A DNA stretch of 64,000 nucleotides from Falsiruegeria mediterranea M17 (GTDB lineage Bacteria; Pseudomonadota; Alphaproteobacteria; Rhodobacterales; Rhodobacteraceae): positions 124,001 to 188,000 of the forward strand of contig NZ_ONZG01000008.1 of the NCBI RefSeq assembly GCF_900302455.1, given 5' to 3'. The translations under genes and the position numbers were made by a program. How positions within the stretch are numbered: position 1 is the first letter of the stretch; every line of letters starts with the position of its first letter. The notes under the pieces were generated by a model. That model was not told the DNA's origin. It searched no databases and saw only the letters and a program-made list of their open reading frames with translations. This document shows positions 9,993 through 53,661 of this stretch, piece by piece.

Positions 9993-12080
9993 TCACTCGG
10001 CCGCGATCTTGATCACCGGTTGCATCTTCTCGAGCGTTTCGTCGCTAAGGTGGCATTTGACCTGATGCCCTTCGGCCAGTGTCCGTACCGGTGGCACCTC
10101 TTTCTCGCACAGGCCACTGCCCACTTCGGACTTCCAGCGGCAGCGCGTCTGGAACGGGCAACCCGGCGGCGGGTTCATGGCCGATGGGATATCGCCTTCG
10201 AGAACGATGTGTTCCTTTTCGACGGATGTATCGGCGATCGGAACCGCGGAAAGCAGCGCCTCGGTATAGGGGTGATAGGGCGGGCTGAACACCTGATCGG
10301 TGGTGCCCAGCTCGACCACATGGCCCAGGTACATCACCATGACCCTGTCCGACAGGTAGCGGACGATCGACAGGTCATGAGAGATAAACAGCAGCGTCGT
10401 TTTCTGCTCGCGCTGGATCTCCATCAACAGGTCGGTCACCGCGGCCTGCACGGACACATCCAGCGCCGAGACGGGTTCATCCGCCACAACGATGCGCGCG
10501 TCACCTGCAAAGGCACGGGCGATACCAACGCGCTGTTTCTGACCACCTGACAGCTGCCGCGGCATCCGCTCTGCAAAGGCGCGCGGCAGTTTCACGAGAT
10601 CCAGCAGTTCCAGCATCCGCTTCCTGCGCTCGGCCTCGGAATTGCCGATGCCAAAGATTTCCAGCGCACGAATGATCTGCCGCCCCACAGTCATCGACGG
10701 GTTCAGCGTGTCAAACGGGTTCTGGAACACCATCTGAACCTCACCCACCGTCTTGGCGTCACGTTCTTCGATGGGCAGGTCTTCAATGTTGCGATTGTCC
10801 AGCAGGATTTGGCCATCGGTGGCCGTCTCTAGCCCCATCAGAACCTTGGCAAAGGTCGACTTGCCGCAACCGGATTCGCCCACGATGGCCAACGTCTCGG
10901 ATTCGCGCGCCTCGAAGGACAAGGTCTCGTTGGCCTTGACCACCTTCTTCTCGCCGCCCCCAAAGAGCGCGTTGGCCGCGACCTCATAGTATTTCTTGAG
11001 GTTGTCCATCTTCAGGACGACCTTGCCGATCTCGCCCTTTTCTTTCTGATCGGCCAGCTCAAGCGGCGCGTTCCAATCGATCTCCTTGAACTTCAGACAG
11101 CGCGTGTGGTGTCGGTCGTTGCCGGGCACCGGCTCCATCAGGATGTCCGTTGCGTCACAGCGACCTTCTTCGAAGTAATCGCAGCGTGGGCCAAAGTTAC
11201 AGCCGGGCGGGCGCTCGTGGGGCAGGGGGAAGTTGCCCGGAATAGCGATCAGCGGGCGCGCGTTCTTGTCAGCCCCGGGCAGCGGGATCGAGCGGAACAG
11301 GGCCTGTGTATAAGGATGCTGCATCTCGTCAAAGACATCCTTGATCGAGCCGCGCTCGACCGCTTCGCCCGAATACATCACGCACAGCCGGTCACAGGTC
11401 TCCAGAACCAGACCAAGGTTGTGCGAAATGAACAGCATCGAGGTGCCGTATTTCTTGCCCAGATCCTTGACCAGCTCGACCACGGCGGCTTCAACCGTCA
11501 CGTCGAGCGCGGTTGTGGGTTCGTCCAGGATCAACAACGCTGGTTTAGACATCAGCGCCATGGCGATGACGATCCGCTGCTGTTGGCCACCCGACAGCTG
11601 GTGTGGAAAGGAATTCAGCATCCGCTCGGGATCAGGAAGACGCACATCCGTGACCACTTCCAAGGCGCGGGCATAGGCTTCTTCCTTGCTTACGCCCTCG
11701 TGGATCATCGGCACTTCCATCAGCTGTCTGCCGATCTTCATCGCCGGGTTCAGCGAGGCCATCGGCTCCTGATAGATCATTGCGATCTCGTTGCCGCGAA
11801 TGTCGCGCAGCTCTTCAGCGCTCATCTCGGCCAGATCACGACCCTTGAACTTGATCGAGCCACCAACGACACGACCATTCTTGCCAAGGTCCTGCATGAC
11901 ACCCAGGGCCACGGTGGATTTGCCGCAACCGGATTCGCCCACAAGACCAACGGCCTCGCCGGGTTGCACCGCGACCGAGAAATCCATCACGGCGGGGATC
12001 TCCCGCAGGCGGGTAAAGAATGAAATGGACAGCTTGTCGATCTCAAGGATCGGGCCGTCATAGTCCGCCATTTTGTTCAT
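9993..12080 (-). CDS. Peptide-type ABC importer, fused double ATP-binding protein
   Basis: One polypeptide with two complete nucleotide-binding domains, equivalent to DppD plus DppF fused. Domain 1 has GESGCGKST, LSGGQQQRI and the Walker B segment LLILDEPTTALD. Domain 2 has a second GESGCGKST, LSGGQKQRV and VVADEPVSALD. Each domain ends with the oligopeptide-family C-terminal region containing CxF..RC clusters (CNFGPRCDYF; CPFQTRCRWK), which often hold an iron-sulfur cluster. The start is set at the ATG at 12080 because GGGAGAAG lies six bases upstream; an in-frame TTG at 12098 is less likely. It energises import by the two permeases at 12174-14450. Confidence 0.93.
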   Translation of the reverse strand: MNKMADYDGPILEIDKLSISFFTRLREIPAVMDFSVAVQPGEAVGLVGESGCGKSTVALGVMQDLGKNGRVVGGSIKFKGRDLAEMSAEELRDIRGNEIAMIYQEPMASLNPAMKIGRQLMEVPMIHEGVSKEEAYARALEVVTDVRLPDPERMLNSFPHQLSGGQQQRIVIAMALMSKPALLILDEPTTALDVTVEAAVVELVKDLGKKYGTSMLFISHNLGLVLETCDRLCVMYSGEAVERGSIKDVFDEMQHPYTQALFRSIPLPGADKNARPLIAIPGNFPLPHERPPGCNFGPRCDYFEEGRCDATDILMEPVPGNDRHHTRCLKFKEIDWNAPLELADQKEKGEIGKVVLKMDNLKKYYEVAANALFGGGEKKVVKANETLSFEARESETLAIVGESGCGKSTFAKVLMGLETATDGQILLDNRNIEDLPIEERDAKTVGEVQMVFQNPFDTLNPSMTVGRQIIRALEIFGIGNSEAERRKRMLELLDLVKLPRAFAERMPRQLSGGQKQRVGIARAFAGDARIVVADEPVSALDVSVQAAVTDLLMEIQREQKTTLLFISHDLSIVRYLSDRVMVMYLGHVVELGTTDQVFSPPYHPYTEALLSAVPIADTSVEKEHIVLEGDIPSAMNPPPGCPFQTRCRWKSEVGSGLCEKEVPPVRTLAEGHQVKCHLSDETLEKMQPVIKIAAE

Positions 12081-34079: not shown

Positions 34080-38470
<4,391 letters not shown>

Positions 38471-38545
38471 GTCACTGTTATCCGGTGTCTTTGTGGAACG
38501 TTGCGCCCTCATGTTCTCCTTGTGAAAACAAGAAAGTTCACAAAT

Positions 38546-38560
38546 GTTCTCAAAAAGTTC
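38546..38560. promoter_or_regulatory. Candidate LexA (SOS) box
   Basis: GTTCTCAAAAAGTTC is an exact GTTC-N7-GTTC direct repeat, the recognition site of alphaproteobacterial LexA. It lies 82 bases before the ATG of a 39-aa membrane protein gene and in the intergenic region after recG. A weaker copy with one mismatch (GTTC-N7-GAAA) starts at 38511. No other exact match was noticed in the gene-free regions I read. Confidence 0.65.
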
Positions 38561-38641
38561 TTTACACGCGCACCGGAAAATGAGAACAAAAGGTCAACAA
38601 AGACTTAACGCTGACATTGACCATTAACCCGGAGACGCCAG

Positions 38642-38761
38642 ATGCTGAGCCAGATCAAAACCGCCCTGACCCGATCCCAGAACACGTTGCTGCAAGATGC
38701 GGCGGGGGCTGCGTCTCTGGTGGTGATGCTTGTGGTGGCGTTGCATCTTCCCAACCTCTGA
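38642..38761 (+). CDS. Small membrane protein behind a LexA box (39 aa)
   Basis: The ATG at 38642, with CGGAGA upstream at normal spacing, opens 39 residues: a polar start (MLSQIKTALTRSQNTLLQDA) then a hydrophobic helix (AGAASLVVMLVVALHLPNL) to the stop. Predicted single-pass inner-membrane protein. The upstream 170 bases carry a LexA box (38546-38560) and two TTAACC-type half-sites (38605, 38624). A strong terminator follows at 38911. It resembles in size and regulation the SOS-induced division inhibitors and membrane peptides (SidA, TisB) but shows no obvious sequence kinship. The 150 bases between its stop and the terminator hold no further gene I can support. Confidence 0.65.
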   Translation: MLSQIKTALTRSQNTLLQDAAGAASLVVMLVVALHLPNL

Positions 38762-38910
38762 TACCCGAATTTCTGCCTGCGATCTCATGCCCGGACCCAT
38801 TCGCATCCTGTCCCATTGATGAAAGGGTGACCTGCCTATCCTTACCCTGAACGGGCCCTGCCTCGGCCCCTGAATGGCCCCCGGACCCCACATGAGACCC
38901 GCAATACCTG

Positions 38911-38948
38911 CCGCCGCTCTTTCCCGCCCGAAAGAGCGGCGGATTTTT
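38911..38948 (+). terminator. Rho-independent terminator
   Basis: A 13-base perfect stem, CCGCCGCTCTTTC (38911-38923) with GAAAGAGCGGCGG (38930-38942), is followed by ATTTTTCTTT. It ends the plus-strand unit containing the 39-aa gene and abuts the end of the convergent MarC gene. Confidence 0.93.
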
Positions 38949-38950
38949 CT

Positions 38951-39589
38951 TTAGAGTTGGCCGGTTTTAACGATTTCCAAGATCGCTGACAGCACAGCGT
39001 TGGCGGCGACCGAGGCCAAGATCATTCCCATCACACGGCTGACAATTGCGGATCCTGCGTGACCGATCAGACGAATGATCGGATCAGCAAACAGCATGAA
39101 CAAAAAGGCAGCGGCAATGACCACCAGCATGACACCTGCTGTCAAAGCCTGATCCGCAATTCCCACCTGATTGTTGTCCGTGAGCATAACGATTGCCAGC
39201 ATGGCGCCGGGTGACGCAAGCGATGGCACAGCCAGCGGAAAGATGGCCGGATTGGGTTTCTCAGTGTCTGCGGCGTTGTATTGTTCGGACTGTTTTTGAT
39301 CTGTTTCCGGTTTGCTTTCGCCGAAAATCATTGTCAGGGCAAACAGAAACAAAACGATGCCGCCCGCGACCTGAAAGGAGTTCAGACCGATATCCAGCGC
39401 GTCAATGAGCAATTGACCGAACACCAGAAAGAACAGCAGGACACCGGCACTGACCAGCGCGGCCTGAAAAGCCGTCTTGCGCCGCGCTGCTGCGTCCAGT
39501 CCGGCGGTGACGGCAATGAAAACCGGAACAGTCCCAATCGGATCAATGACAACCCAAAGGGTCACAAAACTATCAATCACTTCCTGCAA
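38951..39589 (-). CDS. MarC-family integral membrane protein
   Basis: A 212-residue inner-membrane protein with six predicted helices. The family start LWVVIDPIGTVPVFIAVT is clear, as are the second repeat AVPSLASPGAMLAIVML and the closing RVMGMILASVAANAVL. MarC proteins were once tied to multidrug resistance, but no transport function is established. It is convergent with the small SOS gene, and nothing nearby suggests a substrate. Confidence 0.9.
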   Translation of the reverse strand: MQEVIDSFVTLWVVIDPIGTVPVFIAVTAGLDAAARRKTAFQAALVSAGVLLFFLVFGQLLIDALDIGLNSFQVAGGIVLFLFALTMIFGESKPETDQKQSEQYNAADTEKPNPAIFPLAVPSLASPGAMLAIVMLTDNNQVGIADQALTAGVMLVVIAAAFLFMLFADPIIRLIGHAGSAIVSRVMGMILASVAANAVLSAILEIVKTGQL

Positions 39590-52444: not shown

Positions 52445-53661
52445 CCCAAACCTGCCGACATTGTAACACCCCGCTGACGCTGGAATTTCTGGACCTGGGC
52501 CATGCGCCGCCGTCCAACGCCTATGTCTCGTCCGAAGGGTTGTCGCAGCCTGAGCTGACCTTTCCCCTGCGGATCAAGGCCTGTCCCAAGTGCCGTTTGG
52601 TTCAGACCGAGGATTTTGCCGAGGCCGATCAGCTTTTCACCCACGATTACGCCTATTTCTCGTCCACGTCGCGCAGCTGGTTGGATCATGCCGCGCTCTA
52701 TGTGGACATGATCACCAAGCGGTTGGGATTGAATGCGGATAGTCACGTGATCGAGGTTGCCTCGAACGATGGTTATCTACTCAAGAACTTTGTCGCGGCT
52801 GGCATTCCGTGTCTGGGGGTCGAGCCCACGGAAAGCACCGCCAAGGCCGCCGAAGAGTTGGGCGTGCCGGTGTTGCAGGCCTTTTTTGGGGAAGATATGG
52901 CGCGGGATCTGCCCAAGGCCGATTTGGTTCTGGGCAACAATGTCTATGCCCATGTCCCTGATATCAATGACTTTACCCGTGGTCTGCGCGAGGTTCTGAA
53001 ACCACAGGGCGTGATCACCCTGGAATTTCCGCACCTCATGCGTCTGGTCGAATTCAATCAGTTCGACACAGTGTATCACGAGCATTTCTCGTACCTGTCG
53101 CTGCTGGCGGTCGAACGCATAATGACCGCTGCGGGCTGCCGGGTCTTTGACGTCGAAGAGTTGCCGACCCATGGGGGCAGCTTGCGCATCTATGCCTGCC
53201 GGGCCGAGGCGGATCATCAAGATACCCCGGCCGTCGCCGCGCTGCGGGCCGAGGAAGAAGCGCGAGGCATGGACACCGATGCCTATTACTCCGCGTTTCA
53301 GGCCAAGGCCGAACAGGTCAAGAACGACTTTTTGCGGTTCCTGTTGCAGGCCAGGGCCGAGGGCAAATCCGTGGCCGCTTATGGTGCTGCGGCCAAGGGC
53401 AACACGTTGATGAACTTTGGCGGGGTAAAGCCCGATCTGGTGCCGTTTGTCTGTGACGCTGCGCCGTCGAAACAGGGCATGTTGATGCCGGGCAGTCATG
53501 TCCCGATCCTGGCCCCCGATGCGCTAAGGGCGAACCGTCCCGATTACCTGGTGATCTTTCCATGGAACATCGGGCCCGAGATCATGGCGCAAAACCAGGC
53601 GCTGGCTGATGCGGGCACCAAGTTTGTAACCGCCGTACCCGAGCTTAGGGTACTGGGATGA
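52441..53661 (+). CDS. NDP-sugar C-methyltransferase (TylCIII/EvaC-like)
   Basis: A 406-residue SAM-dependent enzyme with three parts: an N-terminal zinc site (CRHCNTPL and CPKCRLVQ), a Rossmann SAM domain (VIEVASNDGYLLK), and a C-terminal domain (KSVAAYGAAAKGNTLM, FVCDAAPSKQGMLMPGSHVPI, in part) characteristic of sugar 3-C-methyltransferases. The HEHFSYLSL segment carries catalytic His residues. It should add a methyl branch at C3 of a 4-keto-6-deoxysugar. Start at the ATG at 52441, overlapping the epimerase stop; a GTG at 52429 is less likely. Confidence 0.85.
   Translation: MTQTCRHCNTPLTLEFLDLGHAPPSNAYVSSEGLSQPELTFPLRIKACPKCRLVQTEDFAEADQLFTHDYAYFSSTSRSWLDHAALYVDMITKRLGLNADSHVIEVASNDGYLLKNFVAAGIPCLGVEPTESTAKAAEELGVPVLQAFFGEDMARDLPKADLVLGNNVYAHVPDINDFTRGLREVLKPQGVITLEFPHLMRLVEFNQFDTVYHEHFSYLSLLAVERIMTAAGCRVFDVEELPTHGGSLRIYACRAEADHQDTPAVAALRAEEEARGMDTDAYYSAFQAKAEQVKNDFLRFLLQARAEGKSVAAYGAAAKGNTLMNFGGVKPDLVPFVCDAAPSKQGMLMPGSHVPILAPDALRANRPDYLVIFPWNIGPEIMAQNQALADAGTKFVTAVPELRVLG

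Follow-up and report, generated by a model that had tools for sequence, protein, structure and literature searches.

Organization of the locus behind recG

The window, that is, the whole 64-kb stretch of DNA that was analyzed (64,000 nucleotides), comes from Falsiruegeria mediterranea M17, a member of the Rhodobacteraceae. It carries a 39-aa open reading frame (ORF) positioned after recG, and an exact LexA box, here called box A, lies upstream with 81 bases separating it from the ATG at 38642. The features of the locus are as follows.

36380 to 38470, forward strand: recG, the conserved upstream neighbor (Pfam RecG wedge, DEAD, Helicase_C and RecG domain 3)
38536 to 38539, forward strand: third GTTC half-site, 10 bases 5′ of box A, giving GTTC-N6-GTTC-N7-GTTC (promoter alignment)
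38546 to 38560, forward strand: LexA box A, GTTCTCAAAAAGTTC (exact in 109 of 110 relatives; same box type in lexA and recA promoters)
38561 to 38566, forward strand: putative −35-like element TTTACA, adjoining the 3′ side of box A
38584 to 38598, forward strand: LexA-like box B, GAACAAAAGGTCAAC, with one mismatch, over the extended −10 and probable start (conserved GAAC spacing)
38597, forward strand: probable transcription start, from the −35/−10 spacing
38631 to 38634, forward strand: Shine-Dalgarno sequence GGAG (by sequence)
38642 to 38761, forward strand: ORF of the predicted 39-aa single-pass membrane peptide (conservation, pN/pS and AlphaFold2)
38773 to 38910, forward strand: structured RNA in the 3′ untranslated region (UTR) (covariance model, fold z-score and covariation)
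38778 to 38794, forward strand: 5′ strand of the closing stem, interrupted and covarying (fold and covariation)
38881 to 38903, forward strand: 3′ strand of the closing stem, interrupted (fold and covariation)
38911 to 38952, forward strand: intrinsic terminator with a 13-bp stem and a T-rich tail (terminator scan)

The initial annotation of this locus had described an exact LexA box upstream of a short gene with a ribosome-binding site after recG, and each of these was recovered at the positions listed. It had also credited the gene with its own strong terminator, which is real and strong but is located at 38911 to 38942, 150 nt past the stop codon of the peptide rather than immediately behind the gene, indicating a long 3′ UTR. 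Two features had been overlooked: the structured RNA that separates the stop codon from the terminator, and the second LexA-like site over the probable −10 and start. The transcription unit would span ∼355 nt. A consensus scan identified no σ70 promoter at the peptide locus on either strand, and the proposed −10 is therefore poor or misplaced.

The peptide and its distribution

Searching with the 39-aa peptide gave a match at an E value of ≤1 in 252 of 295 Rhodobacteraceae genomes, with a second match listed in a minority of them. A total of 110 loci were opened, comprising the 30 best and 80 other listed places spread down to an E value of about 2e−5. Every one of the 110 ORFs began with ATG, and 109 encoded 36 to 42 amino acids, the remaining frame (L082) extending to 75. 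The C terminus of recG was found 5′ of the peptide in 107 loci (exceptions, L011, L040, and L094). For selection analysis, the 108 rows showing D19, G22, and L34 were aligned, one of 109 being dropped by that rule; P37 was present in 107 of these, T15 in 100, and R11 in 91. The pN/pS ratio was 0.335 across 99 close pairs, with pN below pS in 99 of 99 (uncorrected proportions, from pairs that are not independent), and the entropies of the three codon positions were 1.06, 0.71, and 1.56. The peptide frame is under purifying selection, and a spurious ORF is ruled out by this codon-level signal.

Conservation of both the peptide and its LexA box across relatives had been named in the initial annotation as supporting evidence, and both were observed: the frame shows protein-type conservation, and the LexA box is conserved along with it. 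The window peptide has one hydrophobic stretch, with a best 17-aa Kyte-Doolittle mean of 2.26, and the best 17-residue mean was ≥1.75 in all 109 peptides, against a threshold of ≥1.6. Lysine and arginine are absent after residue 22 in 109 of 109 peptides, and the first 19 residues carry a positive net charge in just 43 of 109. AlphaFold2 predicted helices at residues 2 to 11 and 13 to 35 with a mean pLDDT of 90.5. The peptide is thus predicted to be a single-pass membrane protein whose N terminus would lie inside.

The suggestion that this is an undescribed Rhodobacterales family was also supported within the databases and literature covered. No Pfam family matched any of 55 members, NCBIfam gave no match to the window peptide, and the peptide profile matched nothing in the PDB; a single weak PHROGs match (E value, 0.26) was dropped. 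In the openly accessible text of the literature on Rhodobacter LexA, SidA-type inhibitors, small RNAs, and dual-function RNAs, no description of the peptide or the RNA was found. The accessible text of a Dinoroseobacter study with in silico LexA sites does not mention recG and names no such target, and neither recG nor SOS appears in that of a Rhodobacter sphaeroides stress study (PMC3688512).

The 43 family genomes that gave no match yielded 14 more candidates through a profile search together with inspection of the sequence behind recG. Of 30 weak loci returned, 25 were examined; seven were discarded as they lacked recG, and 18 had recG, four of these coming from genomes already counted. The weakest candidates (G083, G101, and G206) are supported by position and box more than by sequence. 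When GTDB contigs were scanned for the motif GTTCTYWWAAAGTTCTTTAC, at least 118 stretches were identified, and 114 of those listed carry the peptide, 113 with recG upstream. Four listed stretches had no peptide: L360 and L393 are interrupted by the end of the stretch, and those from Muribaculaceae and Butyrivibrio genomes are chance matches. Named holders include Ruegeria, Roseovarius, Sulfitobacter, Rhodovulum, Paracoccus, Celeribacter, Gemmobacter, and Planktomarina.

A class-wide profile search of 385 genomes gave seven with a match at an E value of ≤0.01, five of them in the window's own family. The other two matches (G443 and G614) fall within longer reading frames, of 290 and 770 aa, and were taken as chance, leaving no convincing peptide match outside the family among the 385 genomes. 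No LexA-type box was found within 400 bases after recG in any of 30 recG loci outside the family, 25 of which are safe controls; L405, L409, L414, and L416 have a misplaced recG end or a contig end, and L415 has only ∼260 bases left. An ancient, class-wide link to recG was rejected on these loci. The unit is present in most Rhodobacteraceae genomes examined, usually right behind recG, and no genome tested from another family gave either the peptide or the RNA. Searches of 72,556 plasmid and 50,697 phage records also gave no peptide match, and a mobile toxin was rejected on this basis; synteny and this absence are as expected for a checkpoint gene of the chromosome and not for a toxin on a mobile element.

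The promoter block and LexA

Three exact GTTCN7GTTC sites occur in the 64-kb window, where shuffles yield 2.24 and 2.42, and box A by itself is no more than chance expectation. The other two (GAACN7GAAC; positions 10725 to 10739 and 53311 to 53325) make up about the number expected by chance. The significance of box A comes from its conservation across relatives and not from its rarity in the window: an exact GTTCN7GTTC was present in 109 of the 110 opened loci, 54 to 100 bases 5′ of the start codon (median, 65), which rules out a chance occurrence. The sole boxless locus, L082, is from an 80%-complete genome without a LexA-domain match. Among the 18 weak or divergent loci linked to recG, 17 had an exact box, L262 being the one without.

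When 109 promoters were anchored on box A, the consensus read GTTCnCAAATGTTCTYAAAAAGTTCTTTACA, followed by 11 unconserved bases and AWATGAGAACAAAGnGGCAACAAA; the box columns are fixed by the anchoring and the other columns are free. The flanks of the block and the 11-base spacer are unconserved, and the block itself is conserved. The G, T, T, and C of the third half-site were retained in 101, 107, 103, and 106 of the 109 promoters, respectively, and the TTTAC columns in 99 to 109 of them. An extended motif with ≤1 mismatch was present in 11 of 13 family genomes, in one copy each and always 5′ of the peptide; G004 and G008 had none, and three other places in family genomes show 3 mismatches.

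Measured from the start of box A, the distance to the GAAC of box B is 38 bases in 103 of 109 promoters, 39 in three, and 37 in two. Box B (GAACAAAGnGGCAAC) retains one mismatch (CAAC) in most members and may for this reason be part of the start region instead of a site for LexA. An exact GAACN7GAAC lies at or near the box B position in five divergent members (L258, L260, L261, L264, and L272), and in L261 (genome G125) it is the sole box.

The lexA and recA genes served as yardsticks. In all 31 family lexA loci, the 300 bases preceding the domain match contain an exact GAACN7GAAC. The same holds for 25 of 30 recA loci, and two of the five recA loci without it are on short contigs with possibly wrong coordinates. 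The spacers of these boxes are free, and the lexA promoters include GAACTTTTGTAGAAC, which differs at two positions from box A read as its reverse complement. The lexA and recA genes of the window's own genome also carry boxes, as do two further ORFs that we take to be uvrA and imuB. Given that lexA and recA promoters have the same box type, and with an exact upstream box conserved in relatives as in members of the LexA regulon, the peptide gene is very likely under LexA control, judging from promoter sequence. As a separate observation, tandem GAAC half-sites (three or more, with an 11-base period) occur in the lexA promoters L192, L195, L197, L199, L200, L201, L204, and L205, and LexA may therefore bind there as more than one dimer.

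The GTTC direct repeats could instead serve another DNA-binding protein, such as a response regulator activating from upstream of the −35. Box A adjoins the 5′ side of the −35-like element, a typical place for an activator, no consensus promoter was found, the spacer of box A contains AAAAA where several SOS-type boxes of the same genome have TTT, and there are three half-sites with N6 and N7 spacing. However, lexA promoters have the same tetramers, similarly free spacers, and tandem triples, and LexA is also indicated by the divergent members whose start region is covered by an exact LexA-type box, in one case as the only box. A different regulator is accordingly considered quite improbable.

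The presence of the peptide was also compared with that of LexA. No peptide was found in 7 of the 15 genomes lacking a LexA-domain match, compared with 22 of the 280 that have one (Fisher P value, 1.6e−4; genomes not independent). With good-quality genomes only, the counts were 4 of 6 and 20 of 254, respectively (P value, 7.5e−4; again from genomes that are not independent); the 20 are good-quality genomes that have LexA and yield no peptide match. Genome G150 (locus L257) is 100% complete and has no match to the LexA DNA-binding domain, yet the peptide, two exact boxes, and recG are present; its LexA may be divergent. A clean co-loss of LexA and peptide was therefore dropped as proof, being contradicted by G150 and affected by shared ancestry among the genomes.

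Elsewhere in the window's own genome (locus L154, contig C11), a LexA-type box, GTTCTATATTTGTTC, at 353207 to 353221 stands at the start of a 125-aa ORF, which could be a further SOS gene.

The 3′ UTR and a proposed SOS unit

UTRs with a terminator could be delimited by pattern in 95 of the 110 loci, and the other 15 were dropped. With the terminator removed (last 42 bases), each of the 91 UTRs that were long enough gave a better fold than its 60 dinucleotide shuffles did on average (median z-score, −2.27; 54 of 91 below −2), and the window UTR together with its terminator had a fold z-score of −5.7. In minimum-energy folds, a long closing stem encloses several hairpins, three or four of them in 71 of 95 UTRs, and ≥10 long-range pairs were found in 85 of 95 UTRs compared with 34 in shuffles.

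A covariance model, R1, was built from 16 UTRs, including that of the window, chosen by eye for a visible closing stem. R1 gave a single match in the window, at 38773 to 38910 (128.8 bits, for a sequence that is part of the model). Of 59 family loci, two of them in the model, 51 were found at an E value of ≤1 and 42 at ≤0.001, always 3′ of the peptide, with eight missed; the 25 recG loci outside the family, run alongside, gave no match. Matches at an E value of ≤0.1 were obtained in 44 of 80 named stretches. Rfam gave no match up to an E value of 1 in positions 38400 to 39100.

In 61 matches from 75 loci, the closing stem showed double changes in 12 of 13 pairs. Compensatory cells numbered 112, where shuffles gave 22.6, and not one shuffle out of 500 attained any of the observed covariation values; the stem was 95.7% paired compared with 27 to 41% when the partners were slid. 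This alignment was fitted to the stem and so favors it. A structure-blind MAFFT alignment of the 16 UTRs, which was not so fitted, still contained compensatory changes in 6 of 13 closing pairs, although one of five measures (further pair types) did not exceed shuffles. A first broad alignment of 34 UTRs was excluded from the counts. RNAalifold recovered the closing stem alone, and the inner hairpins had weaker covariation and were supported mainly by single folds. The 3′ UTR is a conserved structured RNA, its closing stem established by covariation and its inner hairpins mainly by folding.

The RNA itself could be the main product, an SOS-induced regulatory RNA to which the peptide is secondary or supporting. 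The strong covariation of the closing stem favors this, as do several divergent members in which the peptide is hardly recognizable and a CTGCCTGCG-like RNA start, read by eye, is legible behind it. The clear purifying selection on the peptide argues in the other direction, and R1 is weak in the divergent loci, yielding just nine places in 8 of 18, three with an E value below 1e−4. We consider a leading role for the RNA unlikely.

Short C-rich motifs recur in the UTR. UGYCY occurs at 4.4 copies per UTR compared with 1.5 in shuffles and is unpaired more often than the rest of the UTR (0.69 versus 0.43), although just 163 of 422 copies fall in hairpin loops of the minimum-energy folds. TGCCTG was present in 87 of 95 UTRs (5 when reversed) and TGTCCC in 85 of 95 (26 when reversed). 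Structured 3′ ends often stabilize mRNAs, and the UTR may likewise merely shield the message from 3′-to-5′ decay or aid termination, with no activity in trans. A terminator hairpin is already there, however, and stabilization would leave the repeated conserved motifs unexplained; a purely protective UTR is given a low probability.

Pairing of the UTR with its own Shine-Dalgarno region gave −21.5 kcal/mol, compared with −21.7 kcal/mol for the regions of other species. Self-repression through such pairing was not supported, and pairing in trans is the favored reading. The UTR fold also keeps ≥80% of its pairs within the fold of the full transcript in 82 of 95 cases. Both results bear on a comparison with TisB/IstR-1 of E. 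coli, a type I system in which an SOS-induced hydrophobic peptide is made from a structured mRNA. The conserved LexA box, the small hydrophobic helix, and the long structured mRNA would suit a TisB-like, membrane-depolarizing growth-arrest peptide, with the 3′ UTR as a cis element limiting translation or stability, and both an SOS-type hydrophobic peptide and a structured mRNA are predicted here. In contrast to that system, no self-pairing with the ribosome site was found, and the gene has a single chromosomal place in most family genomes; the persistence of the UTR fold in the full transcript and the lack of a match in the plasmid and phage collections also speak against this reading. Neither the promoter scan of both strands, which also missed the proposed peptide promoter, nor Rfam identified an antisense RNA. 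A TisB-like function seems doubtful, and we rate it as of small probability.

The reading preferred here, to which about an even chance is given, is a LexA-repressed SOS unit in which the membrane peptide delays septation and the 3′ RNA regulates mRNAs. The unit would be a member of the SOS regulon in most Rhodobacteraceae, repressed by LexA. RecA-triggered cleavage would remove LexA from box A, and probably from box B, allowing the promoter between the boxes to fire. Translation would give a peptide of ∼40 aa made up of a short N-terminal helix and a single membrane helix. Its most likely role would be to associate with late division proteins at the membrane, in the way that SidA binds FtsW/FtsN in Caulobacter, so that septation would be delayed until the DNA is repaired. 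The 3′ half of the transcript would fold into a closed multihairpin RNA with repeated C-rich UGYCY motifs, and this RNA would most likely be regulatory and pair with G-rich sites of target mRNAs, either as the whole transcript or after processing. The tie between the peptide and the divisome is drawn solely from size, topology, and SOS control. Both checkpoint and toxin functions had been suggested for the peptide; a checkpoint is preferred because the gene stands at one place in most family genomes without plasmid or phage matches, and because a small LexA-controlled membrane peptide, SidA, inhibits division in Caulobacter. A conserved peptide and a conserved RNA structure occur together on what promoter block and terminator suggest is a single transcript, the arrangement of a dual-function RNA. 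That it acts family-wide as such, its peptide half stopping septation and its RNA half repressing translation of target mRNAs through the C-rich motifs, is offered tentatively, as a possibility we hold to be somewhat doubtful. If true, the dual-function unit would serve the Rhodobacteraceae as their SOS checkpoint and would also represent a structured RNA of a new class. Members of this family are abundant in the sea and include laboratory models. As a brake that DNA damage may apply to their cell division, the gene is a good candidate. The locus offers a testable SOS division-inhibitor candidate present in most of the family genomes that were searched, and behind its LexA box there is also a covarying RNA to which no Rfam family matched.

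SOS-induced division inhibitors are known from a few groups of bacteria and are mutually unrelated, according to the accessible text of PMC4211646, and none was found described for the Rhodobacteraceae in the accessible parts of the literature searched. SidA of Caulobacter is described there as an SOS-induced, 29-aa inner-membrane division inhibitor (accessible text of PMC4211646 and PMC12700426). It resembles the present peptide as a tiny membrane protein under LexA control via GTTCN7GTTC, the box here being recognized by sequence; as with SidA, a predicted single-pass peptide (hydropathy; helix 13 to 35) is combined with a LexA box. The peptide here differs, by comparison of descriptions, in its usual length of 39 to 42 aa and its conserved D..G and LxLP motifs, and its gene adjoins recG and carries a structured RNA in the 3′ UTR. 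YneA and SosA are SOS-induced division inhibitors of Gram-positive bacteria, YneA having a single transmembrane segment, as far as the accessible descriptions go. They share with the peptide its proposed role as a damage-induced division inhibitor and differ, again by description, in size and host.

For the RNA part, Staphylococcus RNAIII and SgrS/SgrT each combine a small peptide and a multihairpin RNA on one transcript, and RNAIII has C-rich pairing motifs. A small peptide, a multihairpin RNA, and C-rich motifs as in RNAIII also appear to share one transcript here, but the RNA is 3′ of the ORF and under a LexA box, and its pairing with mRNAs is putative. DinR of Klebsiella is a 3′-end RNA of the LexA-controlled dinI mRNA that represses ftsZ, described as Klebsiella specific and Hfq dependent in the accessible text of PMC10907235. 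Like DinR, the RNA here would come from the 3′ portion of a message that LexA controls and that encodes a small protein of the damage response, but it is conserved and covarying across the family.

One locus, L039, is unlike the other members: the end of recG lies 620 bases 5′ of the peptide start, and its 3′ UTR, delimited by the terminator pattern, is 363 nt long.
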